Source: a virus. From it: a stretch of 32,340 nucleotides of DNA. Positions 7,912 to 32,340 of this stretch are shown in pieces. The stretch is from IMG/VR virus record IMGVR_UViG_3300042535_000015, positions 1-32,340 of that record; one strand, written 5' to 3'. Numbering within the stretch: the first letter of the stretch is position 1; every line of letters starts with the position of its first letter. The notes beneath the pieces were generated by a model that did not search any database, was not told the DNA's origin, and saw nothing but the letters and a program-made list of their open reading frames with translations. Position numbers and translations under genes: made by a program.

Positions 7912-9530
7912 CAGCTGTCCAGCCAGGGGCCCGGAATCACGAAGAGCACCGACCCCCCATGCATCGCCGCGTAGTCAAACCAGTTGACGGACTCAGCGCC
8001 GATGGCCTGCGCGAGGTTTCCTAGCGCGTCTGCGGTCGTCGGTGGAGTACCGTCCGACACCTGAAACGTCCTGCTTGAGCCATCGTCGTTTCGGATAAAA
8101 ACCGTGCCGCGGGCTCCTTCCGGTGGCTGCTTGACAAGCAGGGCAACGTTGGTGGCAGCTACGTTGGTGCAGTAGAGAAGGCCGTATTGGTCGGTATCGA
8201 GCACCTGTCCTGTCGCTGTGATCGTCACATCCGCGCGGCGTGTCTCGCGCGTTGCCAGCGTCACCCGCGCGCCCTTGCTCGCCGCACGCGCGCTGTAGCT
8301 GTACGCCGTTACTGCGGAGCCAAAAAACATGTTTCCGCTCTCTGTGAAGTCCGAAGTCGACGCGTAAGTTCCGAGCGCGATCGCGGTCACAGCGCCGGAC
8401 GCGTGCATGAACATGCAGCCCTGCACATGGCCGATGACCGACGTAGAGGCCCACTGAAAAACGTTGAACGTTCCGAGCGACGCCTCCGTGTTGAACGAGC
8501 AGTTGTCTGCGAAGATCACAACGGCGCGGATCACCCCGTTGGTGGGGTTGTAGCCGACGCCCGGCACGTGCCCGCAATCCACCATCGACAGCGTTGTCAC
8601 GTCCACCGCGTTGGTGGTAGCAGACGCTGCCTGCTCCATGACCACGCGCTGCATCCGCGCGCCACCCGAGCCATATACGCACTGCCCCGCGTTGTAAGGG
8701 CCGCCGAGGTAGCAGTCTACGAGATCTACGAGCGCACCGCCGCTTAGGACAACGACAGCGCCGGTGTTGGCCTGCGTCGCAGCCACCGTCAGCCCGGCCA
8801 CCACTTGAAACGTCTGCCCGTTGGGCGACGCATCGCCAAAGCGCAGCCCGTCTTCCGCAGCGCTGTCCATGGCCACAGTGGTGCTGGTTGCCCCGCTGCC
8901 CGCGACCGCCACAGTCGCGTACACGTACACCATCGCGGTGATCCTGTAGGTCCCCGCCGGGAAAAACACCGTGCCGCCGCCGGCTGCCTCGGCCGCGTCG
9001 AGCGCGGCTTGAATGGCCACAGTGTCGTCAGCGACTCCGTCGCCAACGGCCCCGTACTCCTTAACATTGAAAACGAGCCCTGTCAGGCGCGCTAGGACGG
9101 TCGACATGTTCGTCGCCGCGCCTCCGAAGAGCACTTGAAAGTTGGTTGCGCCTGCGCTGGCGTACCACCGCCCCAGCACGGTATTGACGTCCACAGGGTA
9201 GCTCGTGCCCGCGCCAGTCGCGCCGCTCACGCGGTTGGTCCCCGTGAACGCCGAGCCGCGGTAGTCCACGAGCGCGGCTTCGCCGCCAAGCGTGAACGAG
9301 CACACCGTTGCGCCGGCCGCGTCGTAACAGACGCAATCAACCAACTGCGCGACGTACGCGACAAGGCGCCCGTTGCCATCAAGCTCTATGTTCGCCGTGG
9401 GCGTCACAGCCGAGCCAGCGTTCGGGTCAGTGTAGTACGTCGCACGCGTGCTCGTTCCGTGAACGAACACCGCCGCGGCGCCGTTTTCTGCGCCCCGCAC
9501 TCCCGCCGCCAGTGGACCAAGCAAGTGCAT
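7911..9530 (-). CDS. Tailspike-like protein with pectate-lyase-type right-handed beta-helix
   Basis: The 539-residue product carries a clear pectate lyase superfamily signature at about residues 153-198: FNVKEYGAVGDGVADDTVAI, then Ala-rich QAALDAAEAAGG and GTVFFPAGTYRIT. This opening is the hallmark of phage tailspikes and depolymerases that bind or cleave cell-surface polysaccharide. The following 230 residues are repetitive beta-helix. Residues 1-100 probably form a head-binding domain (VFVHGTSTRATYYTDPNAG, ANIELDGNGRL), and the C-terminus a trimerisation domain. The active site cannot be told from sequence alone. It overlaps both neighbours by one base (TGATG), so it is made together with the adaptor and gp10-like proteins. 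It is the most likely receptor-recognition protein in the window. Confidence 0.8.
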   Translation of the reverse strand: MHLLGPLAAGVRGAENGAAAVFVHGTSTRATYYTDPNAGSAVTPTANIELDGNGRLVAYVAQLVDCVCYDAAGATVCSFTLGGEAALVDYRGSAFTGTNRVSGATGAGTSYPVDVNTVLGRWYASAGATNFQVLFGGAATNMSTVLARLTGLVFNVKEYGAVGDGVADDTVAIQAALDAAEAAGGGTVFFPAGTYRITAMVYVYATVAVAGSGATSTTVAMDSAAEDGLRFGDASPNGQTFQVVAGLTVAATQANTGAVVVLSGGALVDLVDCYLGGPYNAGQCVYGSGGARMQRVVMEQAASATTNAVDVTTLSMVDCGHVPGVGYNPTNGVIRAVVIFADNCSFNTEASLGTFNVFQWASTSVIGHVQGCMFMHASGAVTAIALGTYASTSDFTESGNMFFGSAVTAYSYSARAASKGARVTLATRETRRADVTITATGQVLDTDQYGLLYCTNVAATNVALLVKQPPEGARGTVFIRNDDGSSRTFQVSDGTPPTTADALGNLAQAIGAESVNWFDYAAMHGGSVLFVIPGPWLDS

Positions 9531-16282: not shown

Positions 16283-18402
16283 GTTCCTCTTGGTTTTGGT
16301 GGTGCTGCTGGCCTAGCTCCCTGCGGGGCTGCTTGTTGCGGCGGTGTGGCAGGCGGGGTGCCAAGTGGCACTTGCGGTGGCGGTGGCGGCGGCCCGAGCG
16401 TTGGCACGAGCGCCGATTGACCCCGCACCTCGAGAGCGGCCTTCGTCGTCTCGTAGATGAACAGCGGGCTTCCCATCAGCGCGGGCACAGCACGCGGCAG
16501 CGCCACCAGCTCGTCGGCTTCTGCACGGCGCTGCGCCTCTGTCGCGAAGCGCAGGTCTGTGCGCCAGTTGTAATGGTACGGCTCGTCATACCATTCCCGC
16601 CGCACCGTAGCGGTCACCGTCTCGTTGGTGCGCCAGTCTAGCAAGAGCGCGGCGTGCGTCTCGTCGAGATAGGTTGCGTTCAGGCGTGCGTTGTTGCGGA
16701 TGATGTTGTCGAGACCACACCACACGTATTTTTGTGCGGGCGAGGACAACATGGCGGTTGCCTGCTCAACGCGGCCCTGGAACCCTCGCGCTGTTTCTCC
16801 ACTCTTGCCCGGCGCTCCGCCGAGCACGTCGGGCGATTGCATGGACGCCTGCCCCCACTTCTGCGCGAGCGAAGCGAGCTCGAGCAGCTGCGGGTTGGCG
16901 GGCCCTGGGCGAAGGTCGATCATGTGCTTTCGAAGGTCGTCAACGCTCATTCCCGACAAGCGCGTGAACTTGCCGGGCGTGAAATCCACTTCATCGGCGT
17001 CCTCGTCGTCAAACTGCACCATTTTGTCAATCAGCCACCCGCCAGCGTTAGCGAGCGTGGCGGAGTGCTCGAAGGCAGAGACGCTGTCGTTGGCCAGCAT
17101 GTTGAAGTCTGCCAGCATTGCGCCGCGGCCGAGGCCTATGCATCCGCTCAAGTTCTCGATATCCACAACGTGCGTGAACATGTGCACGGGCCTCTTGCGC
17201 GCCGGCGCTGGCTCGGTCTGCGTTTCTGTCATCCAGCTCGGCCGCACGGGCGGCGGAGGCAAAACGACTTGGTCTAGTTCTGCGCTTAGCGCTGCGAGAT
17301 CTAAGCCTTGCGCTGCGCCCATCTCGAAAGCGGAGGCCTTGCTTTCGGCGATTGCCCTCACTTCGGACTCATAGGTTGCGAGTTGCGCGTTATACACGGC
17401 CCGCTCTTGCGTCTGCCGGCTCACACGCAGCTTCTCTTCGCTCGGCACTTCTTCGAGCACGCGCAGCTCGAGCACGCGCTTGGTTTTGCTGTCTACGACG
17501 ATGCGGCAGAACCGCTCGCGCTTTTCCTTTGGCAGCCTCACCCACGTTTCTTGCTGGTAGAGCTTGTAGACGCCCGTGGGCTCTTTGTCAGGCTTCTCTA
17601 TTCCGAGCCGCTGTGCCGCCGCCTGGGCCTGCTCGTCCTCTGGGTCGCCGCGGTCTTCCCCTTCGTCGTCCTCGCCCTCGAGGACATCTTGCACGTCCAG
17701 CCATGTGTCTTGGTATGACTCAAGTTTGTGGCGCGGCAGGCGCATGACTTTAGTCACGCGCGGGCAATCGCTATAATCGGGCATGGTGCTTGTGTGCGTG
17801 TAGGGCACGACGAAGTCATCTGCTGACAGCGTGTCGTGAGCGTTGCTGCGTGTCTCATTGTCGTAGTAGCTATGCGCCGTGGCGTCGCCGAACAGTCCGA
17901 AGTTCATGAGCAGCCGGTCCTGCTCGCGATAGAAGTTGCGGATGCCCTCGCGAAACTGCCAGTTGTCATAAAGCGTCATCTGCGCGGCGCGCTCTCGTTT
18001 TTCCGGCGAGTTAGCAACTACGGTCATGATGTATCGTCTGTCTTTGAACACCTCGGCGCCGATGCGCCCGACCCATCGCAGCGTATTTTCGAACAACACG
18101 GGCACGTGGCGATTTGCGGCCCCCTTGTATGGCAGGCTCAGTGTCTTTAGATCTCCTCGAAACAGAGCGAGGATTTCATTACGCCTAGCGCGGTGCGCCT
18201 CGTTGCTATCCCAGTCGCGCCTAAAATCCTCGTCGACGCGGGCGCCGAGCTTTTTCAGAAACTCGCGTCCTTTTTTCCTCTTGCCCATCTTCAGGGCCAA
18301 GTTGCCTTCGTCTTCGTCTTCGTCTTCCGTCTTCGCGTCGTCTTCCTGCGCGACTTCGGACGGCGCAGCGTTCTCCTCCAGGTCGTACTCATTTTCCTTC
18401 AT
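16279..18402 (-). CDS. Portal protein
   Basis: The 707-residue product is the size expected for P22-type portals (P22 gp1 is 725). Evidence: an acidic, Lys-rich start (residues 1-50); a helical region with EAHRARRNEILALFRGDLK; the typical PYKGAANRHVPVLFENTLRW segment (membrane-like first core strand and helix); DRRYIMTVVANSPEKRERA; YDNWQFREGIRNFYREQDRL; the stretch FGLFGDATAHSYYD; and a C-terminal half with long helices (the barrel). The last 40 residues are Pro-rich (QVPLGTPPATPPQQAAPQ). The acidic insertion at about residues 240-260 (EGEDDEGEDRGDPEDEQA) is unusual. It forms the ring through which DNA is packaged and ejected. It overlaps the terminase 3' end by 14 bases. Confidence 0.8.
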   Translation of the reverse strand: MKENEYDLEENAAPSEVAQEDDAKTEDEDEDEGNLALKMGKRKKGREFLKKLGARVDEDFRRDWDSNEAHRARRNEILALFRGDLKTLSLPYKGAANRHVPVLFENTLRWVGRIGAEVFKDRRYIMTVVANSPEKRERAAQMTLYDNWQFREGIRNFYREQDRLLMNFGLFGDATAHSYYDNETRSNAHDTLSADDFVVPYTHTSTMPDYSDCPRVTKVMRLPRHKLESYQDTWLDVQDVLEGEDDEGEDRGDPEDEQAQAAAQRLGIEKPDKEPTGVYKLYQQETWVRLPKEKRERFCRIVVDSKTKRVLELRVLEEVPSEEKLRVSRQTQERAVYNAQLATYESEVRAIAESKASAFEMGAAQGLDLAALSAELDQVVLPPPPVRPSWMTETQTEPAPARKRPVHMFTHVVDIENLSGCIGLGRGAMLADFNMLANDSVSAFEHSATLANAGGWLIDKMVQFDDEDADEVDFTPGKFTRLSGMSVDDLRKHMIDLRPGPANPQLLELASLAQKWGQASMQSPDVLGGAPGKSGETARGFQGRVEQATAMLSSPAQKYVWCGLDNIIRNNARLNATYLDETHAALLLDWRTNETVTATVRREWYDEPYHYNWRTDLRFATEAQRRAEADELVALPRAVPALMGSPLFIYETTKAALEVRGQSALVPTLGPPPPPPQVPLGTPPATPPQQAAPQGARPAAPPKPRGT

Positions 18403-19924
18403 AGCTGTAGACCTTGTTTCTCCCGGCCTTCTTGTTTCTTTCGAAGATCGACCTATCGGTCACCTTATCGAGCAGACCGCTGTACCACTTTTCCTCGCGC
18501 GACTCGCCCACTCGCTGCGGTCTGTCGGCGTACTCCACTGCGTACAGCAGTGCGTCAAGCGAGTGGTCGTCACGGTATCGCGTATCCGGCTCGTTGCGAT
18601 TGTGCTCGTCGGGCATGATTTGCGGCAGGTTGCTGATGATATCGCGGCAGTTGTCGAAGAACACGATTCCGCGTTGGCGCTCGAAGCCGCGCCCTCGCAG
18701 CCGCAGAGTCAAGCGTTCGCTGTTGCGTTGTCGGGAGCGCTTGTTGGCTCGGTCCCAGGGCACCCCGGCCCGATAGAAGTCCTCGGCCTTACTCACGCCT
18801 ACGTCGCCGCGCTCTTCCCAGAGCTGGGTATCTGCGGGCCCCGTGATGAGCGAGCGCCCGTTTTTCGCCAACCCCACGGCCGTCTCGAATTCGATGACCT
18901 CGCAAGCAACCTCTTGCGCGTCTTTGCCGCGAAACATCAGTTCGCGGTGGCAGACCATTTCGTCGTCCGGGGTGACAGCCCACCACTGGATGCACCCGTT
19001 ACTGCGAAAACCCCAGTCCATGGACCTAAAGTGCCGCCACTCGCGCGGCACTGCGAACGGCCCACATACGTGCTTACGGGGGTCCCAAACATCATCGAAG
19101 AACGCCCCCACCACGGAGTACCAGTTACCTTCGAGGTAGGCCTTCCGGATTTGCTCAGGCATTGCGAGCAGCCTTAGCTCTACTTCACGCACAAAGTCCG
19201 GGTTGGGGTTGTCGTAGAGCGTGGCCGGGAGATAAATCCAGTCCCATACGTCTGTAGTTCCGTCTTGCCTGGTCAATATTTTCTGCAAGGTGACACCCCC
19301 GCTTGGCGCGGGGTCAACGAAGCGCTTACGGACCCACTGCGGGTCCGATACGGATCCGCCCTCAGTGCTAGACCCTGGGTTAGACATACTGCGGATCTTG
19401 AGCATTGGCCCAAGCACTAGATCTGGCGATCTACAGCGCAACCCAATCTTGTTATACTGGTCTTCATCGAACTGGTTCAGCTCATCGAACGCTAGATGGG
19501 TGCACTGCCTCGAGAAGTAGTTGATCCACGAGCCTTGTTCTGTGCAGTGGTTGTACTGGTAGATGTAGCCACTCGAAAATGTCCATGTATTAGACTTGGC
19601 GTTGAACTTGGCACCGGGGTCTATCAGCTGGAAGGCCGCCTTCGAGTTGCGGATTGCATCCTCGAGCATCGGGGTAGAGCGCCGGAAGTACCACGCAGCC
19701 CCCGTACTGGCCCCCCATTCCATGTGGTTCGGATGGTTCTTATCTGCGCACCGCTCGTGTTCGGCGAGTATTTGTGCCAGCGGGTCATATTGCAGGCATA
19801 CGCTCTTGCCAGGACCCACCGCGCCCGCGCCGAGCGCTTCTTTGTGTTTGAGCGAGTGGTATAGAGCCTGCCACCGGCTAGGCTCGTAGATAAGCTGCTT
19901 TGGTGTTGGCTCATCGGGCTCCAT
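18389..19924 (-). CDS. Large terminase subunit (DNA-packaging ATPase/nuclease)
   Basis: This 511-residue protein starts at the ATG of a TGATG overlap. The frame is open 44 codons upstream, but that part is Arg-rich and lies inside the preceding gene. Walker A GAVGPGKS is at residues 34-41, Walker B LAFDE at 144-148, and the coupling segment RSMSNPG near 190. The C-terminal RNase-H-like nuclease has its acidic residues in RSMDWGF, ITGPADTQLW and DDHSLDALLYAVEY. Together these define the motor that cuts concatemers and pumps DNA into the procapsid through the portal encoded next. The N-terminal segment before Walker A is short, as in several environmental phages. Confidence 0.9.
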   Translation of the reverse strand: MEPDEPTPKQLIYEPSRWQALYHSLKHKEALGAGAVGPGKSVCLQYDPLAQILAEHERCADKNHPNHMEWGASTGAAWYFRRSTPMLEDAIRNSKAAFQLIDPGAKFNAKSNTWTFSSGYIYQYNHCTEQGSWINYFSRQCTHLAFDELNQFDEDQYNKIGLRCRSPDLVLGPMLKIRSMSNPGSSTEGGSVSDPQWVRKRFVDPAPSGGVTLQKILTRQDGTTDVWDWIYLPATLYDNPNPDFVREVELRLLAMPEQIRKAYLEGNWYSVVGAFFDDVWDPRKHVCGPFAVPREWRHFRSMDWGFRSNGCIQWWAVTPDDEMVCHRELMFRGKDAQEVACEVIEFETAVGLAKNGRSLITGPADTQLWEERGDVGVSKAEDFYRAGVPWDRANKRSRQRNSERLTLRLRGRGFERQRGIVFFDNCRDIISNLPQIMPDEHNRNEPDTRYRDDHSLDALLYAVEYADRPQRVGESREEKWYSGLLDKVTDRSIFERNKKAGRNKVYSYEGK

Positions 19925-20373
19925 CAATAAAAATCCTGCTGGGCGGAGCCAAGCCAGTCGCCCTCTAACCAGCGCAGCGTGACGAGGTCGACCCGTCCGG
20001 CTGTTGCTGTGATCGTCGGCGGGGCACCGCCTTGCCAGAGCACGGTCACTGGCCACCCTGCGACTGTGAAGGCCCCCTGTTGGTGCACCATTACGACAAC
20101 TGTAGCCGCGTCCGCTGGTGGCGTCACAAGCTCTACGCTGGTCACATCTTGCGTAAGCTCAACGACATGGACTTCTCCGTCCGCCGCGTTGATGTGGAGT
20201 GCCCCTGCCGCGACGGCCACCGTTGTTACGGCGTGTCGGTCATCGATGAGCGAGTTGACGGCCCTGAGCAGGGCTTTGACTACTGGTTGCACCTCGCGCT
20301 GGACTGCGCCGATGATGGTTTGCTGTGTCAGCTGACGATCTGACAGTCCGCGGTCTATTTTTGCAGTGGTCAT
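19924..20373 (-). CDS. Tail/virion-like protein of unknown function ahead of terminase
   Basis: The 149-residue product has a helical N-terminus (SDRQLTQQTIIGAVQREVQP, KALLRAVNSLIDD) then a beta-rich domain: VELTQDVTSVELVTP, TVVVMVHQQGAFTVAGWPVTVLW, GGAPPTITATAGRVDLVTLRW, ending LGSAQQDFY. The last half matches the C-terminal pattern of the fibre-like protein at 119-919 and of many phage structural proteins. A structural gene immediately before the terminase is unusual in this genome order. It is coupled to the terminase by a TGATG overlap and to the gene upstream by ATGA. Function unknown; a minor virion protein is the best guess. Confidence 0.6.
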   Translation of the reverse strand: MTTAKIDRGLSDRQLTQQTIIGAVQREVQPVVKALLRAVNSLIDDRHAVTTVAVAAGALHINAADGEVHVVELTQDVTSVELVTPPADAATVVVMVHQQGAFTVAGWPVTVLWQGGAPPTITATAGRVDLVTLRWLEGDWLGSAQQDFY

Positions 20374-22645: not shown

Positions 22646-22657
22646 CTCTGGCGTGGT

Positions 22658-22714
22658 CACTAGGGGGGGGCCACCCGACGTGAGCCCCCCCCGGCTCCCC
22701 TTGCCCCCCTAGTG
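22658..22714. repeat. Large dyad downstream of winged-helix gene
   Basis: An 11-base perfect inverted repeat (CACTAGGGGGG at 22658-22668, CCCCCCTAGTG at 22704-22714) surrounds a 35-base loop that itself holds a GAGCC/GGCTC hairpin. It starts 13 bases after the stop of the winged-helix gene. No T run follows on the plus strand, so it is not a classical terminator, but it may fold in RNA or act as a cruciform. Confidence 0.55.
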
Positions 22715-22740
22715 GGAGAGGAAAGCGAGTGGAGAAGTGA

Positions 22741-22778
22741 GCGAGCTGGCGAGGGCGAGCTGGCGAGGGCGAGCTGGC
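22741..22778. repeat. 14-base tandem repeat, 2.7 copies
   Basis: Unit gcgagctggcgagg at 22741-22754 and 22755-22768, followed by ten bases of a third unit. Confidence 0.8.
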
Positions 22779-22906
22779 AGTGGGAGAGGGGAGCGGAGGC
22801 GCGAGGGGAAGGGCTGTGTGTCGGGGAGGGTGTCGCGGTGTTGGGGAGGCGGGTACGCCGGAGCGGGGGCCCCCTGATTCCGGCTGCGCGCGGTGCGGAG
22901 GGGTGA

Positions 22907-23042
22907 GGCTTGCCGCGCCGAGTGACGCACGGGGGGTCGCGCATGACGCCCCGGCTTGCCGCGCCGAGTGACGCACGGGGTTGTTGGGGGTGTGCGCGAA
23001 GACGCACAGCCGGTGGCGCGCGGGGATCGCGCATGACGCCCC
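22907..23042. repeat. 46-base tandem repeat, two good and one diverged unit
   Basis: Units start at 22907, 22953 and about 22999. The first 28 bases (core cgccgagtgacgcacgggg) are identical in units 1 and 2. The last part (tcgcgcatgacgccccggc) is identical between unit 1 (22937-22955) and unit 3 (23027-23045). The spacing of 46 bases is close to four helix turns, but no iteron-binding protein is evident. Confidence 0.75.
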
Positions 23043-23318
23043 GGCAATCTTTGGGATACTGGCCCCGTGGGGGAGTGGCACTTGGCGGCGTTCGACTTGT
23101 CCCCATCCAGGGACCGCAGCAGTGTCGCACGGGAGTGGCGGAGCGTGGGGCGTCCCCCGTTTGGAAGGTGGCGTTGAGGCTGCGAGGGAGAGCTTGCGGC
23201 CCCGAGGAAGGCTGGAGCGCGGCGTAAGTGAGAGAGAGACGAGGTGGCGAAGAGCTAGGAGGGCGAGTGGTCGAGAGGAAAAAACGGCAGGGGGCGGGCG
23301 AATTTCAACGCTTTCCCC

Positions 23319-23396
23319 TTGCGCGCACTATCTGGCGGGACTATAGTCTCTGTAGATAGAGCGTCACGAGGCGCTGCGAGAAAGAGGCCAAAAATG
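23319..23396 (+). promoter_or_regulatory. Early promoter-leader element, copy 1
   Basis: TTGCGC (23319-23324), 17 bases, TATAGT (23342-23347), then a 46-base leader to the ATG at 23394. It shares TCCCCTTG upstream and CTATCT in the spacer with copy 3. The leader contains GCGCTGCGAGAAAG, a shortened form of the hairpin leader seen in copies 2 and 3. A purine-rich GAGG lies six bases before the ATG. Confidence 0.7.
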
Positions 23397-23663
23397 GGGA
23401 CAGTGATCGGACTGATTGTTCTTCTTACGGCAGGAGGCGACGGCACCCTGAGCTCGCGGCGAGCAGTGGTGGTATGTCAGTCTGAGCGCTGCGAGGCCCG
23501 TCTACTCGCGGGCGAGCCATCGCTGACAGCCGGCGACTGCGCGAGAACGGCGGGCTACCTCGAGGAGGCGGAGGAGGCGGAGGAGGTGGAGAGGTGCTCT
23601 CCCGACGGGGTGACAGTGACACTGTCGGCCGCAGGGCTGCTGTCCTCTCTTGCCGCGCTATAG
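23394..23663 (+). CDS. Small early protein with hydrophobic N-terminus and Cys residues
   Basis: An 89-residue protein starting at the ATG fixed by promoter copy 1. The first 13 residues are hydrophobic (MGTVIGLIVLLTA), like a short signal or membrane anchor but without a basic n-region. Four cysteines follow (VVVCQSERC, GDCART, VERCSPDG). An acidic stretch EEAEEAEEVE is encoded by a nine-base DNA repeat. Its stop codon TAG lies inside the TATAGT of promoter copy 2, so the two elements overlap. Function unknown. The gene is supported mainly by promoter placement. Confidence 0.45.
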   Translation: MGTVIGLIVLLTAGGDGTLSSRRAVVVCQSERCEARLLAGEPSLTAGDCARTAGYLEEAEEAEEVERCSPDGVTVTLSAAGLLSSLAAL

Positions 23664-23712
23664 TTTCTTCATACACCGTGCGCTGCGAGCGCGAGAAAGC
23701 GGAGCGAAAATG
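23659..23712 (+). promoter_or_regulatory. Early promoter-leader element, copy 2
   Basis: TATAGT (23659-23664) plus a 45-base leader to the ATG at 23710. From the four bases before TATAGT the next 23 bases are identical to copy 3, and a further 21-base block of the leader is also identical. The leader contains a GCGCT-GCG-AGCGC hairpin. There is no good -35 at the expected spot (GCTGCT) because the upstream DNA is coding, so this copy may be weaker or work in another way. GGAG precedes the ATG by four bases. Confidence 0.65.
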
Positions 23713-24171
23713 TCGAACACGGCTCTCAAAATCACACTCACCGGTTGCGCGCACGCGAAAATCACGACGGTGTCAGTGGGCGGGTACACGGCGCCGGTCG
23801 GGCGGGAGCCAAACCCAGCGGCGCACGGAGGAGTGAGCGCGACTGAGGAGTGTGCGGGGTGCGGGGCTCGGCGGAAAGTGAATGAAAATGGGTGGTGTCG
23901 GGAGGAAGGTGCGTGGTGGGATCGTCTCAGTGCAGTGAGCGAGGCAGGGGCGCGAGTGTCTAGGGCCCGTGCGGCTGCGCTCGAGGCCGGCGCACGAGAG
24001 CTGGTCTCTTCGAGCGGGGATCGCGTCCGCGTACAGGTGGAGTCGGACGGGTTCGTCTCGGTCCGCGGACCGCACCTATCCGAGGAGGGTGATGCGATCG
24101 TGCACGCCAGCGGACTGCTCGCGCTCGCGGTTCGGCTGCGCGAGGCCATCGCAGAGGCCGAGCGACTCTGA
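23710..24171 (+). CDS. Early zinc-ribbon-like protein (153 residues)
   Basis: The start is set by promoter copy 2. C48-x2-C51 (ECAGCGARR) and C63 (NGWC) form three of the four ligands of a zinc ribbon, with C13 as a possible fourth. After the ribbon comes a helix (WDRLSAVSEAGARVSRARAA), a beta segment (DRVRVQVESDGFVSVRGPHL) and a C-terminal helix (ASGLLALAVRLREAIAEAER). The GPHLSEEGDAIVHASGL part could be a second small domain. It is one of five small CxxC proteins encoded here. Function unknown: nucleic acid or protein binding is plausible for zinc ribbons, but the sequence does not show a specific target. Confidence 0.6.
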   Translation: MSNTALKITLTGCAHAKITTVSVGGYTAPVGREPNPAAHGGVSATEECAGCGARRKVNENGWCREEGAWWDRLSAVSEAGARVSRARAAALEAGARELVSSSGDRVRVQVESDGFVSVRGPHLSEEGDAIVHASGLLALAVRLREAIAEAERL

Positions 24172-24273
24172 CGCCGGCGCACAGGAGTGTTACGCGCCGC
24201 CGCGTGTGCTTCGCGCGCCTGATGAGTCGCCGCGCAAATCGACTAGCGCGCATCACTTTTTCGAGGATTCCCC

Positions 24274-24350
24274 TTGAGCCGGCTATCTAACGGCGCTATA
24301 GTTTCTTCATACACCGCGCTGCGAGCGCGAGAAAGCAGACCGAAAATATG
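24274..24350 (+). promoter_or_regulatory. Early promoter-leader element, copy 3
   Basis: TTGAGC (24274-24279), 17 bases, TATAGT (24297-24302), then a 45-base leader with the GCGCT-GCG-AGCGC hairpin and the ATG at 24348. It matches copy 2 almost base for base after the -10, and copy 1 upstream of the -10 (TCCCCTTG, CTATCT, CGG). This conservation in non-coding positions, with the same distance to the start codon, is the main evidence that all three are real. Confidence 0.75.
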
Positions 24351-24410
24351 GACGACCCGGCGAACAAGATCGTGACGACCTACCCTTACGAGGGGGGGGT
24401 GCGCGCGTGA
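24348..24410 (+). CDS. 20-residue leader peptide (possible frameshift fusion partner)
   Basis: The start codon sits at the conserved distance from promoter copy 3. It encodes MDDPANKIVTTYPYEGGVRA and stops in a GTGA overlap with the next gene. Near its end, a run of eight G (24392-24399) lies in the ggg-ggg codons. A -1 slip on this run would join the peptide to the downstream zinc-ribbon frame. It could therefore be a regulatory leader, the N-terminus of a frameshift product, or the result of a sequencing error in the homopolymer. Confidence 0.45.
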   Translation: MDDPANKIVTTYPYEGGVRA

Positions 24411-24691
24411 CTGACGCCCGTATACTCTCGCTGCGCGTCGCACGAGCTCGGCGACTGCTGCCCTCCGAGCTCGTCGATCAGCTAGAGGCGGCCGCCACCA
24501 ATCTGGCGCGCCTCGGGCTCGCGATCCGCGCGCTCGACTGCGACGCGCAGACAGCGCGAGACTGTCTCGAGCGGCTCGGCTACCTCGACCACGACCGCTG
24601 CGCAGCCTGCGGCCAGCCAGCTTCGCCGCGCGAGCTGCTCGCCTGGGACCAACCGCGCGAGCGAATCTACCACCGCAGGTGCGTGCCTTGA
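24407..24691 (+). CDS. Early protein with C-terminal zinc ribbon (94 residues)
   Basis: The frame starts at GTG inside GTGA, four bases of overlap with the leader peptide. The first 60 residues are helical (SELVDQLEAAATNLARLGLA). The C-terminus holds C65-x2-C68 and H89-x2-C92 (CAACGQ ... HRRC), a zinc-ribbon pattern. If translated by -1 frameshift from the leader, the product would be longer by the leader peptide. No catalytic motif is seen. It is close to the other small zinc-ribbon genes in this region, so a shared early regulatory or host-interaction role is possible. Confidence 0.55.
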   Translation: MTDARILSLRVARARRLLPSELVDQLEAAATNLARLGLAIRALDCDAQTARDCLERLGYLDHDRCAACGQPASPRELLAWDQPRERIYHRRCVP

Positions 24692-24732: not shown

Positions 24733-25146
24733 ATGCCTCTCTCGCCACTCCAATCGATCCTCGCCAGGCTGTCGATAGCGCCTCTGGACTACTGCCCGAC
24801 CTGCGAGGGCCTCGGCAGCCTCTACGACTATGTCGGCGACCGCGACTGCTCGGAGCTATGCCCGACCTGTCGCGACCCGGACGGCCCAGCGCCAGATCTC
24901 GAGTGCGACAGCTGCGGGCGAGCGGGCGAGCAGCTACTCCTGTTCCGGCCGGCTGAGGGCGATGGGGCCGACCAGCTCGCGTGCCGCTCGTGCGCAGCGC
25001 TCGAGCTGTCGCTCGGGGTCGGACAGGACGGCACCGAGCGACAGCTCGCGGAGATGGCCGCGCTCCTGCGCGAGCACTGCGCCTCGCAGGCGAAGGAGCG
25101 CGCCGCTATCTACCTCGCCCTGATCTCCCACAGGAGCGCTCCGTGA
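24733..25146 (+). CDS. Early Cys-rich double zinc-ribbon protein (137 residues)
   Basis: I start at ATG 24733, which has GGAG eight bases upstream; a TTG at 24688 would overlap the previous gene. Four CxxC pairs are present: C21/C24 (CPTCEGLG, like DnaJ CxxCxGxG), C43/C46 (CPTC), C58/C61 (CDSCGRAG) and C84/C87 (CRSC). The C-terminal helix (EMAALLREHCASQAKERAAI) is encoded by a 57-base segment that recurs with three differences at 26571-26627. It is followed in GTGA overlap by a decayed coiled-coil gene, the same neighbour as the 110-residue zinc-ribbon gene has further right. DnaJ-like cysteine modules bind unfolded proteins or nucleic acids, but the role here is unknown. Confidence 0.6.
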   Translation: MPLSPLQSILARLSIAPLDYCPTCEGLGSLYDYVGDRDCSELCPTCRDPDGPAPDLECDSCGRAGEQLLLFRPAEGDGADQLACRSCAALELSLGVGQDGTERQLAEMAALLREHCASQAKERAAIYLALISHRSAP

Positions 25147-25296
25147 GCGCGCAAATCGAGCGCTCTCGCCATCCGCGAGCTGCCTGTGCCGACGGTCTCG
25201 AGTGTCGATGCGCAGCTGGAGCTCGCGCTGGTCGTGGGCGCGCTCGAGGACCTTGCGACGGCGCTCGAGTCGTTCGGAGGCGAGACCACTCCTTGA
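25143..25296 (+). pseudogene. Internally deleted, frameshifted copy of the coiled-coil gene at 27058-28014
   Basis: The GTG start overlaps the upstream stop and begins MSAQIE, like MSEQIE of the intact gene (16 of 18 bases match). From 25168 a second frame, +1 relative to this start, reads AIRELPVPTVSSVDAQLELA and continues to a stop at 25296. It matches the C-terminus of the 318-residue protein (AIRALPVPEVSSAEARSELA...) with 26 of 37 residues identical. About 270 central codons are missing. The simplest reading is a duplicated coiled-coil gene reduced to its two ends. The start frame itself runs on to 25490 as a Cys/Arg-rich frame, probably not functional. Confidence 0.7.
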
Positions 25297-25581
25297 CCCC
25301 GCAAAATCCCGCTGATTTCGCACAATCGACCGGTGGCAAGTCGATTGTTGCGATTCGGGCTTGCTATCCGGGTGGGGCCGTGCGATTGTCTCTTTGTCGG
25401 GCGCGGTGCTCGGCGGAATGGGGAGAGCGGACGATGACGAGGCTGGCTTCATGCGCGGACGCGTCGAGCGTGACGGCAGCTACAGCCTGACCTGACCCCC
25501 CCCACTCCGATCCACGGGCCTAGCCCTCACACCGTGAGGGACTGGCCGGCCGATCGGGGCCGAGGCAATGGAGAGCGGAAC
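25297..25581 (+). other. Gap with hairpin and no convincing gene
   Basis: About 285 bases between the pseudogene and the next good start. A short frame ending GGMGRADDDEAGFMRGRVER... (25353-25495) with a hydrophobic start (AIVSLSGAVLGG) is possible, but has no clear start codon. The hairpin at 25524-25540 lies just before the next gene. A run of eight C (25495-25503) is also present. Confidence 0.35.
25524..25540 (+). promoter_or_regulatory. Hairpin before a small early gene
   Basis: CCCTCAC-ACC-GTGAGGG: a perfect seven-base stem with a three-base loop, 41 bases before the ATG at 25582. No T run follows, so it is more likely a structured leader than a terminator. Confidence 0.5.
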
Positions 25582-25803
25582 ATGGACAGACCCTACAAGT
25601 TGGTGCGCGACTGGTATCGACCCGTCGCCGATCCGTCACAATTCTGCGGTCGCATAATTGCGTCCTACGCCACGCTCGGAGCCGCGGTAGCCGCCGCGCG
25701 CCGCAGAAGTCCAGAAGGACTAGAAGTCATGCGCGGCGGAGCGGTGTTGAGAACGCTGTCCCACCACGGGCTACCGAGTGACCCACGCTGGGACGCGGAG
25801 TGA
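25582..25803 (+). CDS. Small early protein (73 residues)
   Basis: Starts at an ATG with GGAG about eight bases upstream. The frame is open further upstream, but that part is Arg/Gly-rich and overlaps the hairpin. The product begins MDRPYKLVRDWYRPVADPSQFCGRIIASYATLGAAVAAARR, which looks like a compact alpha/beta protein with a strand, a turn and a helix, ending VMRGGAVLRTLSHH. No known motif. Ends in a GTGA overlap with the next gene, so it is co-translated with the HTH-like protein. Confidence 0.55.
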   Translation: MDRPYKLVRDWYRPVADPSQFCGRIIASYATLGAAVAAARRRSPEGLEVMRGGAVLRTLSHHGLPSDPRWDAE

Positions 25804-26096
25804 TCCTGCCCCTCACCTCCACCCTAGCCCGCGCGATCCACGCGCGCGATCCGTCGCTCACCCCGACCGAGATCTCGCGCGAGATCTCGGCGCTGCACAA
25901 GCGCACGTGCTCGCGACAGCAGGTCGAGCACGCGGTACGCGCGACCGGCAAGCCAGCGGGCAGGAAGCTAGATCACCCGCAGCCAAGCTCGAGACAGCGT
26001 GAGATAGCTAGCGCCGTCGACGGCTGCGGTACCGACACGATCGCAGATGTATTACACGCTGAGTACCTGCGCGGGCGCAGGAGGCAAGAGCCTTGA
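25800..26096 (+). CDS. Putative helix-turn-helix protein (98 residues) with palindrome in gene
   Basis: GTG start in a GTGA overlap. The centre reads LTPTEISREISALHKRTCSR then QQVEHAVRATGKPAGRKL, which fits a helix-turn-helix with a short basic tail, and a second helical part (RQREIASAVDGCGTDTIADVL) could be a second HTH. The DNA for TEISREIS contains a perfect 24-base palindrome (25867-25890). A DNA-binding role is inferred from the HTH pattern. Whether the palindrome is its operator is unknown. Ends in a TTGA overlap with the next small gene. Confidence 0.55.
   Translation: MILPLTSTLARAIHARDPSLTPTEISREISALHKRTCSRQQVEHAVRATGKPAGRKLDHPQPSSRQREIASAVDGCGTDTIADVLHAEYLRGRRRQEP
25867..25890. repeat. 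24-base perfect palindrome
   Basis: Half-site CCGAGATCTCGC followed by its exact reverse complement. Each arm contains GAGATCTC. It lies in the coding sequence of the putative HTH protein. Confidence 0.9.
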
Positions 26097-26218
26097 TTTT
26101 GCGCGCTTTCCCGCAATCGACCGACGTCCGACAGCACAAGGCGCGCAACAACGGCACGCCGCACCCGCTTTGCGTGCGAGCGCTCGAGGCGCTCAAGCGA
26201 CGGTGGGGCGTGGTGTGA
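26093..26218 (+). CDS. Small basic protein (41 residues), TTG start
   Basis: A short gene hidden between two overlapping frames. It starts at TTG inside TTGA (overlap with the previous stop) and ends in a GTGA overlap with the next gene, the same spacing used by its neighbours. The product is LILRAFPQSTDVRQHKARNN then GTPHPLCVRALEALKRRWGVV (first residue Met in life), basic and helical at the end. Function unknown. The chain of four-base overlaps is the main evidence that it is translated. Confidence 0.5.
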   Translation: MILRAFPQSTDVRQHKARNNGTPHPLCVRALEALKRRWGVV

Positions 26219-26685
26219 GTACGCGAATCAAATGGCGACTGTTAATTCCGCTGCTGCGCGACGACGTGCGCGCCGCCGTGCTTGCCCGCGCGCTCGGAGT
26301 GGAGACCCAGCCCGCGAGCCACGCACTCTTCCGCTGCCGCGGCTCGCTCCGGAAAAAAGGCCCGTATCCACGGGTGGACTGGTCATCTGTGGACACGGCC
26401 TGGCTGATGACGGCGCCAGTGGCTCGTATCGCAGAAGGACTCGGGGTCAGCGTCACGACCGTGGTCACCCGCAGACGGAAGGCGGCAGAAGGTGGAATAG
26501 AGCGCGCCGAGCACCCAAACGCGCACAAGAAGATCGACTGGTCGCGCCAGCGACTTGGGTCGCGACCCGACGCGGAGATGGCCGCGCTCCTGCGCGAGCA
26601 CTTCGCCGCGCAGGCGCAGGAGCGCGCAAATCGAGGTCGTGCAGGGCCCGCCACGCGAGCCTGTAGTGCAGGCTGCTGTCTGTGA
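26215..26685 (+). CDS. HTH protein with recombined C-terminus (156 residues)
   Basis: GTG start in a GTGA overlap. Two related DWS-type helix-turn-helix repeats are visible: VDWSSVDTAWLMTAPVARIA continuing EGLGVSVTTVVTRRRKAA, and KKIDWSRQRLGSRPDAEMAA. Such repeats (DWS..pLG..pDaelA..lGvs...V...R...gi) occur in phage DNA-binding proteins. The second repeat is broken after DAEMAALL: from there the DNA matches the 3' end of the 137-residue zinc-ribbon gene (57 bases, three differences) and then, out of frame, the 5' end of the coiled-coil gene (46 identical bases). The C-terminal tail NRGRAGPATRACSAGCCL is thus made from another gene's DNA. DNA binding is likely; the target is unknown. Confidence 0.6.
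   Translation: MSTRIKWRLLIPLLRDDVRAAVLARALGVETQPASHALFRCRGSLRKKGPYPRVDWSSVDTAWLMTAPVARIAEGLGVSVTTVVTRRRKAAEGGIERAEHPNAHKKIDWSRQRLGSRPDAEMAALLREHFAAQAQERANRGRAGPATRACSAGCCL
26626..26671 (+). repeat. 46-base direct repeat, copy 1 (5' end of coiled-coil gene, remnant)
   Basis: Identical over 46 bases to 27066-27111, where the DNA encodes QIEVVQGPPREPVVQ of the coiled-coil protein. Here it has no start codon and is read in another frame as the tail of the HTH protein. It marks a leftover of a duplicated gene. Confidence 0.9.
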
Positions 26686-26728
26686 CACCCAATCCACCCC
26701 AACCACAACCCCAAAACCCCAACACAAA

Positions 26729-27061
26729 ATGACCCAATCCAACCACACGTCTGCGGACCTCGCAACCTACCGTCTAGCGCAGAGCGAAGCTGCCGACGCA
26801 GCGCAGCTCCGCAGCACTGCTGTCGCTCGCAGGTGCGCTGTGAGCACACGGGCGAGCTGCTACGACTGCGCGGCCGCGGCGCAGGTGACGTCCGACCACA
26901 GACTGTCCGGCGACGGCCACACGCGCTGCCTGCGCTGTGCACTGCGGCGACTCGCGCAGCTCGAGATCGGGAGCCAGCACGGTATCGCAGCGCGCGCCTG
27001 GCTGGCGAGCACTACACGCAGCGCGCGCGTGGCACGCTCAATCCTCAGGAGCGCTCCATGA
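26729..27061 (+). CDS. Early zinc-ribbon protein (110 residues)
   Basis: I choose the ATG after an A/C-rich leader; upstream of it the frame reads through the recombination remnant. Residues C44/C47 (CYDC) and C67/C70 (CLRC) form a two-CxxC zinc ribbon, with helices on both sides. It ends in ILRSAP with an ATGA overlap into the coiled-coil gene, just as the 137-residue zinc-ribbon protein ends ISHRSAP before the coiled-coil remnant, so the two gene pairs are probably duplicates. The unusual A/C-rich leader (26690-26728), almost without G, stands out from the GC-rich surroundings. Confidence 0.6.
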   Translation: MTQSNHTSADLATYRLAQSEAADAAQLRSTAVARRCAVSTRASCYDCAAAAQVTSDHRLSGDGHTRCLRCALRRLAQLEIGSQHGIAARAWLASTTRSARVARSILRSAP

Positions 27062-28014
27062 GCGAGCAAATCGAGGTCGTGCAGGGCCCGCCACGCGAGC
27101 CTGTAGTGCAGTACGCAGTTACGCCCGCGGACATCCGCGCGCTGGCCCAGCGCTACTCCGGCCTCTCTTGCGACACACGCGAGGGCTACGAAGAGACGCG
27201 CATCGCGATCGCGGAGCTGCGGACGACACGCGTGGCCGTCGAGAAGCGGCGCTGCGAGCTTAAGGCCTCCGCGCTCGACTGGGGGCGCAGGGTGGACGCG
27301 GCCGCGAAGGAGCTGACTGCGGCCATCGAATCAATCGAGGACCCGCTCAAGGAGCGCAGACGGCTGGTCGACGAGGCGCGCGAGCGCGCGAAGCGCGAGG
27401 CTGAGGAGGCCCGGCTCGCGGCCGAGCGGGCCGAGATCGAAGCTCGGCTGCGAGCCGAGCGTGAAGCCGAGGAAGCTCGGCTGCGGGCAGAGCGAGAGGC
27501 GGAGGAGCTTCGGCTGGCGCAAGAGCGCGCGCGGCTCGCTGCGGAGCGGGCCGAGACCGAGGCACGGCTGCGGGCAGAGCGAGAGGTCGAGGCAGAGCGC
27601 TTGGCCCAGGAGCACCGGCAGCTCGCGGCCGCGCGCGCTCTGCTCGAGGCGGAGCGGGCAAAAGCGGACGCAGCAGCGCAGGCCGAGCGCGATGCGCTCG
27701 CGCGAGAGAGAGCGGATTTCGCTCGCCAGCAGGCCGAGCGCGAGCGCGCAGAAGCCGCCAAGCAGGAAGCCGAGCGCGCGAAGCGCGCTGCTGAAGAACG
27801 GCGCGTCGCCGAAGCAGAGCGGCAGGCCGCGCTTGCGGCGCGGCTCGAGGCCCTCAAGCCCGACGCCGAGAAGCTCGCAGCGTTTGCTGCTGCTATCCGC
27901 GCGCTGCCAGTGCCCGAGGTGTCCAGCGCCGAAGCGCGGTCCGAACTGGCGCTCGTGCTCGCGGCGCTCGCTGACGTTGCGGGCGCGCTCGAGTCGTTCG
28001 GGGAGGGCGGATGA
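27058..28014 (+). CDS. Coiled-coil protein of recombination cassette (DUF1351-like)
   Basis: This 318-residue protein starts at ATG in an ATGA overlap. A short N-terminal domain (IEVVQGPPREPVVQYAVTPA) leads to GYEETRIAIAELRTTRVAVE and then a long Ala/Glu/Arg coiled coil from about residue 100 to 265, ending in a small C-terminal domain (AIRALPVPEVSSAEARSELA). This is the layout of the phage coiled-coil proteins that often precede RecT or Bet genes, and the RecT-like gene follows here. Its exact function in those phages is unclear, perhaps assisting annealing or exonuclease loading. Decayed and partial copies of it lie at 25143-25296 and 26626-26671. Confidence 0.7.
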   Translation: MSEQIEVVQGPPREPVVQYAVTPADIRALAQRYSGLSCDTREGYEETRIAIAELRTTRVAVEKRRCELKASALDWGRRVDAAAKELTAAIESIEDPLKERRRLVDEARERAKREAEEARLAAERAEIEARLRAEREAEEARLRAEREAEELRLAQERARLAAERAETEARLRAEREVEAERLAQEHRQLAAARALLEAERAKADAAAQAERDALARERADFARQQAERERAEAAKQEAERAKRAAEERRVAEAERQAALAARLEALKPDAEKLAAFAAAIRALPVPEVSSAEARSELALVLAALADVAGALESFGEGG

Positions 28015-31969: not shown

Positions 31970-32340
31970 GTGCGCACCGTAGGCCGCCATGTCCGCTCCG
32001 GTACCCCGGTCGGTGATTACATCGCGCGCTGTGGTCTCTGCGGTGCTCCCTGGCAGCGCTCGCTGCTGTGGCGCGACCGCTCCGGCACGCTCCGGTGCCC
32101 CCGCCACGATAGTGGACTAGACCGCGTTACGCTCGCCAAGATGGCCGCTCGCCGTCCACTGCGCCCGCGCGCCATGCGCAACGACGGCGACGAGTACTTC
32201 CCAGCCCCAGCACCAGCACCAGCCCCAGCCCCAGCACCAGCCCCAGCACCAGCACCAGCACCAGCCCCAGCACCAGCCCCGCCCGCGATCACCTCCCTCG
32301 GCACTGTGAGCGGTACGGAGGTCGGCGGCACGAGCGTGGT
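31970..32340 (+). CDS. Zinc-ribbon/(Pro-Ala)13/IPT-TIG virion-like protein (5' part, runs off right edge)
   Basis: The frame begins at GTG 31970 (another GTG at 31952 is in frame) and is open to the edge, 123 complete codons. Residues C21/C24 and C43/H46 (CGLCG ... RCPRH) form a zinc ribbon. It is followed by GLDRVTLAKMAARRPLRPRA, an acidic segment, then a linker of 13 Pro-Ala pairs (residues 78-103) and the opening of an IPT/TIG domain, PPAITSLGTVSGTEVGGTSVV. Ribbon plus linker plus Ig-like domain suggests a minor structural or host-surface protein. The same IPT/TIG segment occurs at the left edge in the opposite direction. Confidence 0.65.
   Translation, partial: MRTVGRHVRSGTPVGDYIARCGLCGAPWQRSLLWRDRSGTLRCPRHDSGLDRVTLAKMAARRPLRPRAMRNDGDEYFPAPAPAPAPAPAPAPAPAPAPAPAPAPPAITSLGTVSGTEVGGTSV
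32201..32278 (+). repeat. Hexanucleotide tandem repeat (CCAGCM, 13 copies)
   Basis: Thirteen in-frame CCAGCC or CCAGCA units encode the Pro-Ala linker. A repeat of this kind is prone to copy-number change and to assembly error. Confidence 0.95.
32281..32340. repeat. Right copy of edge inverted repeat (IPT/TIG-coding)
   Basis: Reverse complement of 1-60 with two differences; encodes the same IPT/TIG opening in the right-edge gene. Confidence 0.9.

Follow-up and report, generated by a model that had tools for sequence, protein, structure and literature searches.

The SAS and ESAS repeats of cluster K mycobacteriophages have been described (PMC3203893), and the ESAS were reported to carry putative SigA-like promoters with 17-18-nt spacing (PMC11373665). 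Judged by their arrangement, these ESAS+SAS modules are the closest known analogues of an element present in three copies in the DNA analysed here, a 32,340-base window which is the complete IMG/VR record of an uncultivated phage (G000), classed as linear. In both systems a repeated unit stands before non-structural genes, a SigA-like promoter is followed by a motif at the position of the ribosome-binding site (RBS), and the stop codon of the upstream gene can fall inside the repeat (PMC3203893, PMC11373665). A SigA-like -35/-10 pair, 17-18 nt apart and placed before the RBS motif, is found in copies 1 and 3 (17 nt) but not in copy 2. The SAS consensus itself is unrelated: the 13-bp GGGATAGGAGCCC, allowing up to 2 mismatches and 3-9 nt before starts, gave 0 matches in the window. 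Three adjacent copies are present here, as against 11-19 dispersed SAS in cluster K. The ESAS carry 15-17-bp imperfect inverted repeats, while here an inverted repeat lies across the promoter in copy 1 only, and the ESAS is placed directly upstream of the SAS, whereas here a leader of about 30 nt separates the -10 from the Shine-Dalgarno (SD) motif.

Repeated upstream motifs of unknown function were also reported in the Microbacterium phage clusters EC, EF, EG and EI (PMC7302621). These are likewise short repeats at a fixed distance upstream of start codons, lying in small intergenic gaps (PMC7302621), but their sequences are different, their copies are more numerous, and the EC motif is absent here at up to 3 mismatches. 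By analogy, the present element would work like the ESAS+SAS and Microbacterium repeats, yet it is not an ESAS+SAS member, since the SAS consensus is absent and inverted repeats do not occur in every copy. Moron-type genes have promoters of their own, and the small orphan genes with individual promoters at this locus resemble them; however, no convincing terminator was found, the same promoter is repeated, and the genes lie within one early block.

Homology and layout of the three copies

The three copies are homologous, measure about 70-90 nt and each run up to a start codon (Table 1); they head a rightward block which begins at 23.3 kb and contains small orphans, a RecT-like protein, an exonuclease, a helicase and an HNH protein. 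The genes of the structural module (terL at 18389-20056, tail and connector proteins) are on the minus strand, below 21 kb. The GC content of the record is mostly 60-70%, and no DNA relative of the 22.5-27 kb region was found in the phage collection.

Table 1. Coordinates of the repeated elements, of the reading frames behind them and of nearby duplications
Feature	Position	Strand	Remarks
Element copy 1	23313-23396	+	TTCCCC; -35 TTGCGC 23319-23324; CTATCT 23328-23333; -10 TATAGT 23342-23347; GAGAAAG 23378-23384; ends at ATG 23394
Imperfect palindrome of copy 1	23324-23363		40 nt, centred on ACTATAGT; arms CTATCT...AGATAG
Gene 1	23394-23663	+	89-aa orphan ORF; hydrophobic N-terminus; evidence from codon-position GC
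Element copy 2	23645-23712	+	No -35 match; CTCTCT; -10 TATAGT 23659-23664; GCGCTGCGAGCGC 23680-23692; GAGAAAG 23693-23699; GGAG 23701-23704; ends at ATG 23710
Gene 2	23710-24171	+	153-aa orphan; CxxC...C stretch
Element copy 3	24268-24350	+	TTCCCC; -35 TTGAGC 24274-24279; CTATCT 24283-24288; -10 TATAGT 24297-24302; GCGCTGCGAGCGC 24316-24328; GAGAAAG 24329-24335; ends at ATG 24348
20-codon ORF	24348-24410	+	MDDPANKIVTTYPYEGGVRA; opened by the ATG of copy 3
Gene 3	24407-24691	+	94-aa orphan; first full ORF after copy 3
Duplication	25047-25103/26571-26627		95%
Duplication	26617-26671/27057-27111		96%
Duplication	25168-25277/27892-28001		74%
Duplication	25128-25160/27043-27075		91%; also spans SD and start

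The similarity of the copies was evaluated by local alignment, using dinucleotide shuffles as the null. Copies 2 and 3 scored 108 versus 30.5 +/- 4.6 for the shuffles (about 17 SD above), and the more diverged copies 1 and 3 scored 63 versus 27.4 +/- 3.9 (about 9 SD above). The near-identity of copies 2 and 3 downstream, together with the GCGCT-GCG-AGCGC sequence in both, had been noticed before and was confirmed: self-BLAST aligned 57 nt of them (23655-23711 / 24293-24347) at 93% identity, E 1.6e-16. The repeat is real and non-random, and we read its three copies as an early expression module whose general kind is already known.

Comparison of the sub-blocks gave a more divided picture. Between copies 1 and 3 the identity was 5/6 in the -35, 6/6 in the -10, 7/7 in GAGAAAG and 15/26 in the linker from the -10 to the SD, while between copies 2 and 3 it was 0/6 in the -35, 6/6 in the -10 and 26/26 of the aligned positions from the -10 to the SD, apart from a 2-nt insertion. 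Accordingly, the -10 and the SD are common to all the copies, the -35 is missing in copy 2, and a common leader is seen only in copies 2 and 3. Between copies 1 and 3, the -35, -10 and SD positions are more strongly conserved (18/19 identical) than the rest (44/66; Fisher p 0.011, the positions having been chosen post hoc).

The three TATAGT hexamers were placed exactly as originally reported, and they are the only plus-strand occurrences in the record; the fourth match arises where the copy 1 palindrome is read on the minus strand. An ATG follows each of them, at a distance of 46, 45 and 45 bases. All three copies have in common CTnTCT, CTATAGT, GCGAGAAAG and AAAAT(G); little or no variation is seen in TATAGT, in CTnTCT, always 8 nt before it, and in GCGAGAAAG, GAGAAAG stands 9-12 nt before the ATG, and an A occurs in every copy 7 nt after the -10, at the predicted +1. 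The features described for copies 1 and 3, namely the two -35 hexamers, the 17-nt spacer, the preceding TTCCCC, the shared TTCCCCTTG (continued as -nGC) and CTATCT in the spacer, could all be found. The TATAG of copy 2 contains the stop codon of gene 1, and so the upstream half of this copy is coding sequence.

The copied block stops at the start codon, and the three ORFs downstream show no clear paralogy; the score of genes 1 and 3 was reached by 11/300 shuffles, uncorrected for ten pairs. No family match was obtained for gene 1, the structure predictions were uninformative for gene 2 (pLDDT 45) and likewise for gene 3, and a zinc knuckle is possible in the latter. The stop codon of the 20-codon ORF, as read from the sequence, overlaps the GTG of gene 3 (GTGA).

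Promoter reading and competing explanations

In a consensus scan for TATAAT-like -10 and TTGACA-like -35 hexamers at 16-18 nt spacing, copy 3 gave 9/12 matches at a spacing within this range, and copy 1 had 8/12 by reading against the sigma-70/SigA-type consensus. The -35 hexamers agree with TTGACA at only 3-4 of the 6 positions. Copy 2 failed at the -35, and an extended -10 is also absent from it. Copies 1 and 3 differ from copy 2 in that, by their sequence, they look like complete promoters, with starts predicted from the spacing near A23354 and A24309; the corresponding position in copy 2 would be near A23671. Downstream, AGAAAG...GGAG/GAGG has the look of an extended Shine-Dalgarno sequence, which would be complementary to a 16S tail with the ending CCUCCUUUCU. 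In copy 3 this motif is degenerate (GAGAAAGCAGACCG), with the AGAAAG part only.

The explanation that we consider the most probable, with moderate confidence, is that the element is a compact early expression module for the host RNA polymerase. A core promoter of the sigma-70/SigA type, its leader (about 40 nt) and an extended Shine-Dalgarno made up of AGAAAG and GGAG/GAGG would have been duplicated together, so as to occupy three places in the head of the rightward early region. The host enzyme would read copies 1 and 3 as active promoters early in infection. Copy 3 would probably start a long early operon through the recombination genes and the helicase, and translation would enter it via the 20-codon ORF, to which gene 3 would be coupled. 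In copy 2, inside the 3' end of gene 1, the -35 appears to be lost; this copy is most likely used as the leader and RBS of gene 2 on read-through transcripts from copy 1, and its promoter activity would be weak at best. Promoter activity, start sites, early timing and translational coupling are what we infer from this arrangement. The explanation is favoured because the alignments are far above the shuffles, the motifs are invariant or nearly so, the spacers of copies 1 and 3 are of 17 nt, their -35, -10 and SD are better conserved than the rest, the copies end at ATGs and have an A at the predicted +1, the ORFs behind the copied block show no clear paralogy, the elements head the block with RecT and the helicase, and TATAGT is confined to these three sites on the plus strand. 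It is weakened by the lack of a -35 and of an extended -10 in copy 2, by the degenerate SD and the 20-codon ORF of copy 3, by the poor -35 hexamers and by the lack of a convincing copy in the nearest relative found and in the collections searched. The homology, the position at the head of the block and the promoter-leader-RBS layout were supported, whereas the idea that three copies control three genes was supported only in part, because copy 2 has no -35 and copy 3 leads into a 20-codon ORF.

Since other short duplications lie nearby, a neutral or recent segmental duplication stays a serious rival, although we regard it as rather unlikely. The early region would then be prone to short ectopic duplications, the copies would be by-products, only some of the promoters would work, and there would be no coordinated regulation. 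Four other duplications were found in the following 4 kb, several of them spanning gene starts or ends (Table 1), long repeats of comparable strength were not found in the 21-kb structural region, and RecT is encoded downstream. The promoter-leader copies may have arisen in the same way as these duplications, to which the RecT-type annealing protein of the phage could, we infer, contribute. However, the copies end at functional boundaries, from the -35 or the -10 to the ATG. Moreover, in copies 1 and 3, which have diverged more, the -35, -10 and SD are better conserved than the linkers.

Joint control of the promoters by a phage or host regulator, bound to CTATCT/AGATAG sites flanking the -10, would explain why copy 1 is an imperfect palindrome on its -10 and why CTATCT (CTCTCT in copy 2) recurs at a fixed distance in all three copies. 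We hold this to be improbable: the palindrome, including its right arm, is absent from copies 2 and 3, its score (15/20 pairs) recurs elsewhere and is equalled by about two fifths of the shuffles of the whole window, and no repressor gene was seen among the proteins scanned. It is possible that the palindrome of copy 1 is an operator.

The leader might also be a controlling element at the RNA level, on read-through transcripts, either in the manner of antitermination or as the target of a protein or a small RNA; for the hairpin, the original prediction had proposed such binding. The missing -35 of copy 2 and the near-identical, hairpin-carrying leaders of copies 2 and 3 agree with this, but the GCGCT-GCG-AGCGC hairpin occurs in these two copies only, and the predicted leader of copy 1 folds into a different small stem. 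The folding z values of the leaders of copies 1, 2 and 3 were -1.00, 0.51 and -0.73, none being stable beyond expectation, and their MFE of -8.7 to -9.8 compares with a median of -11.2 kcal/mol for 40-nt windows of this GC-rich region. The leader had no match in Rfam, and a boxA-like match is absent at these sites. Compensatory changes, suggested earlier as a check, were looked for across the copies: copies 2 and 3 have exactly the same GCGCT/AGCGC stem, and since they differ just in an outer closing pair, U-G as against C-G, covariation is almost uninformative. The hairpin as a binding target was thus not borne out, the common trigger suggested together with it is likewise unsupported, and an RNA element of this kind seems very unlikely to us. 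It is about equally hard to believe that one factor switches several early orphan genes via a shared cassette copied from gene to gene, which would be an undescribed control system.

Two further candidates were rejected. N4-type vRNAP promoters were considered for the 3-nt-loop hairpin, but copy 1 lacks this hairpin and no RNA polymerase was seen among the proteins scanned. A T5 run at 24257 was considered as a terminator before copy 3, but its folding is unremarkable.

If the promoters of the duplicated module are real, they would mark the start of early transcription in an isolated phage lineage, and would show a short expression cassette copied in front of unrelated genes, in parallel to the unexplained ESAS/SAS repeats of actinobacteriophages. 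If they are not, the element would be of use mainly for annotation.

Searches for relatives and other repeats

A profile built from the three copies scored each of them at E 4e-23 or better. The next match is the palindrome of copy 1 itself, read on the minus strand (23366-23310, E 5e-4); a fourth copy was not found over the record, the next independent match having E 0.16. In the viral contigs, both a 21-mer search and a -35/-10 pattern search gave 0 matches, and a looser -10/SD/ATG pattern was found in 18 contigs of 31-46% GC, with one match each and without significant profile scores. BLAST of copy 3 against phages and plasmids gave none. Two isolated matches in bacterial genome contigs (Flavobacterium and Sporosarcina) were taken as chance; the Flavobacterium match (33% GC) had E 0.0017 against the pattern-hit loci and 0.023 against all loci. 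The motif search proposed earlier thus gave neither a fourth copy in the record nor a convincing copy in the collections.

Relatives collected by RecT shared only RecT or one or two other genes and were of no help in the comparison. The TerL-based search led to one true relative, G001 (48 kb), with identities of 44% in TerL, 47% in the exonuclease and 39% in the helicase; structural proteins are also shared. The element was absent from its early region (best profile E 7.1; the scan also covered 16-31 and 41-48 kb), and no convincing homologue of genes 1-3 was seen there either. The expected conservation in related phages was therefore not found in the sole true relative, which at 39-47% protein identity is a weak test: G001 is too distant for alignable promoter sequences, so that the absence of the element does not refute its function.

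Several other repeats were observed in the record. Upstream of copy 1, a purine/G-rich stretch at 22650-23300 contains two repeats, a perfect direct one of 28 nt (22907, 22953) and one of 24 nt (22932, 23022), and is possibly an origin or control region. The short duplications at gene boundaries extend over 25038-28001, in which 25168-25277 is a truncated, probably out-of-frame copy of the C-terminus of a coiled-coil gene; a perfect 24-nt palindrome is found at 25867-25890 and a 47-nt imperfect one at 25002-25048. At the two ends of the record, 1-61 recurs in inverted form as 32280-32340 (60 nt at 98%, placed symmetrically), although the class of the record is linear with no end repeats; this is either a genuine inverted terminal repeat or the result of an assembly folded back on itself. 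A tandem CCAGCC/ACCAGC array (32200-32298) adjoins the right end. In the relative G001 (L172), overlapping repeats with a 15-nt period, CCGGGGCAAACCTCT, at 8161-8324 probably encode a pentapeptide-repeat protein.
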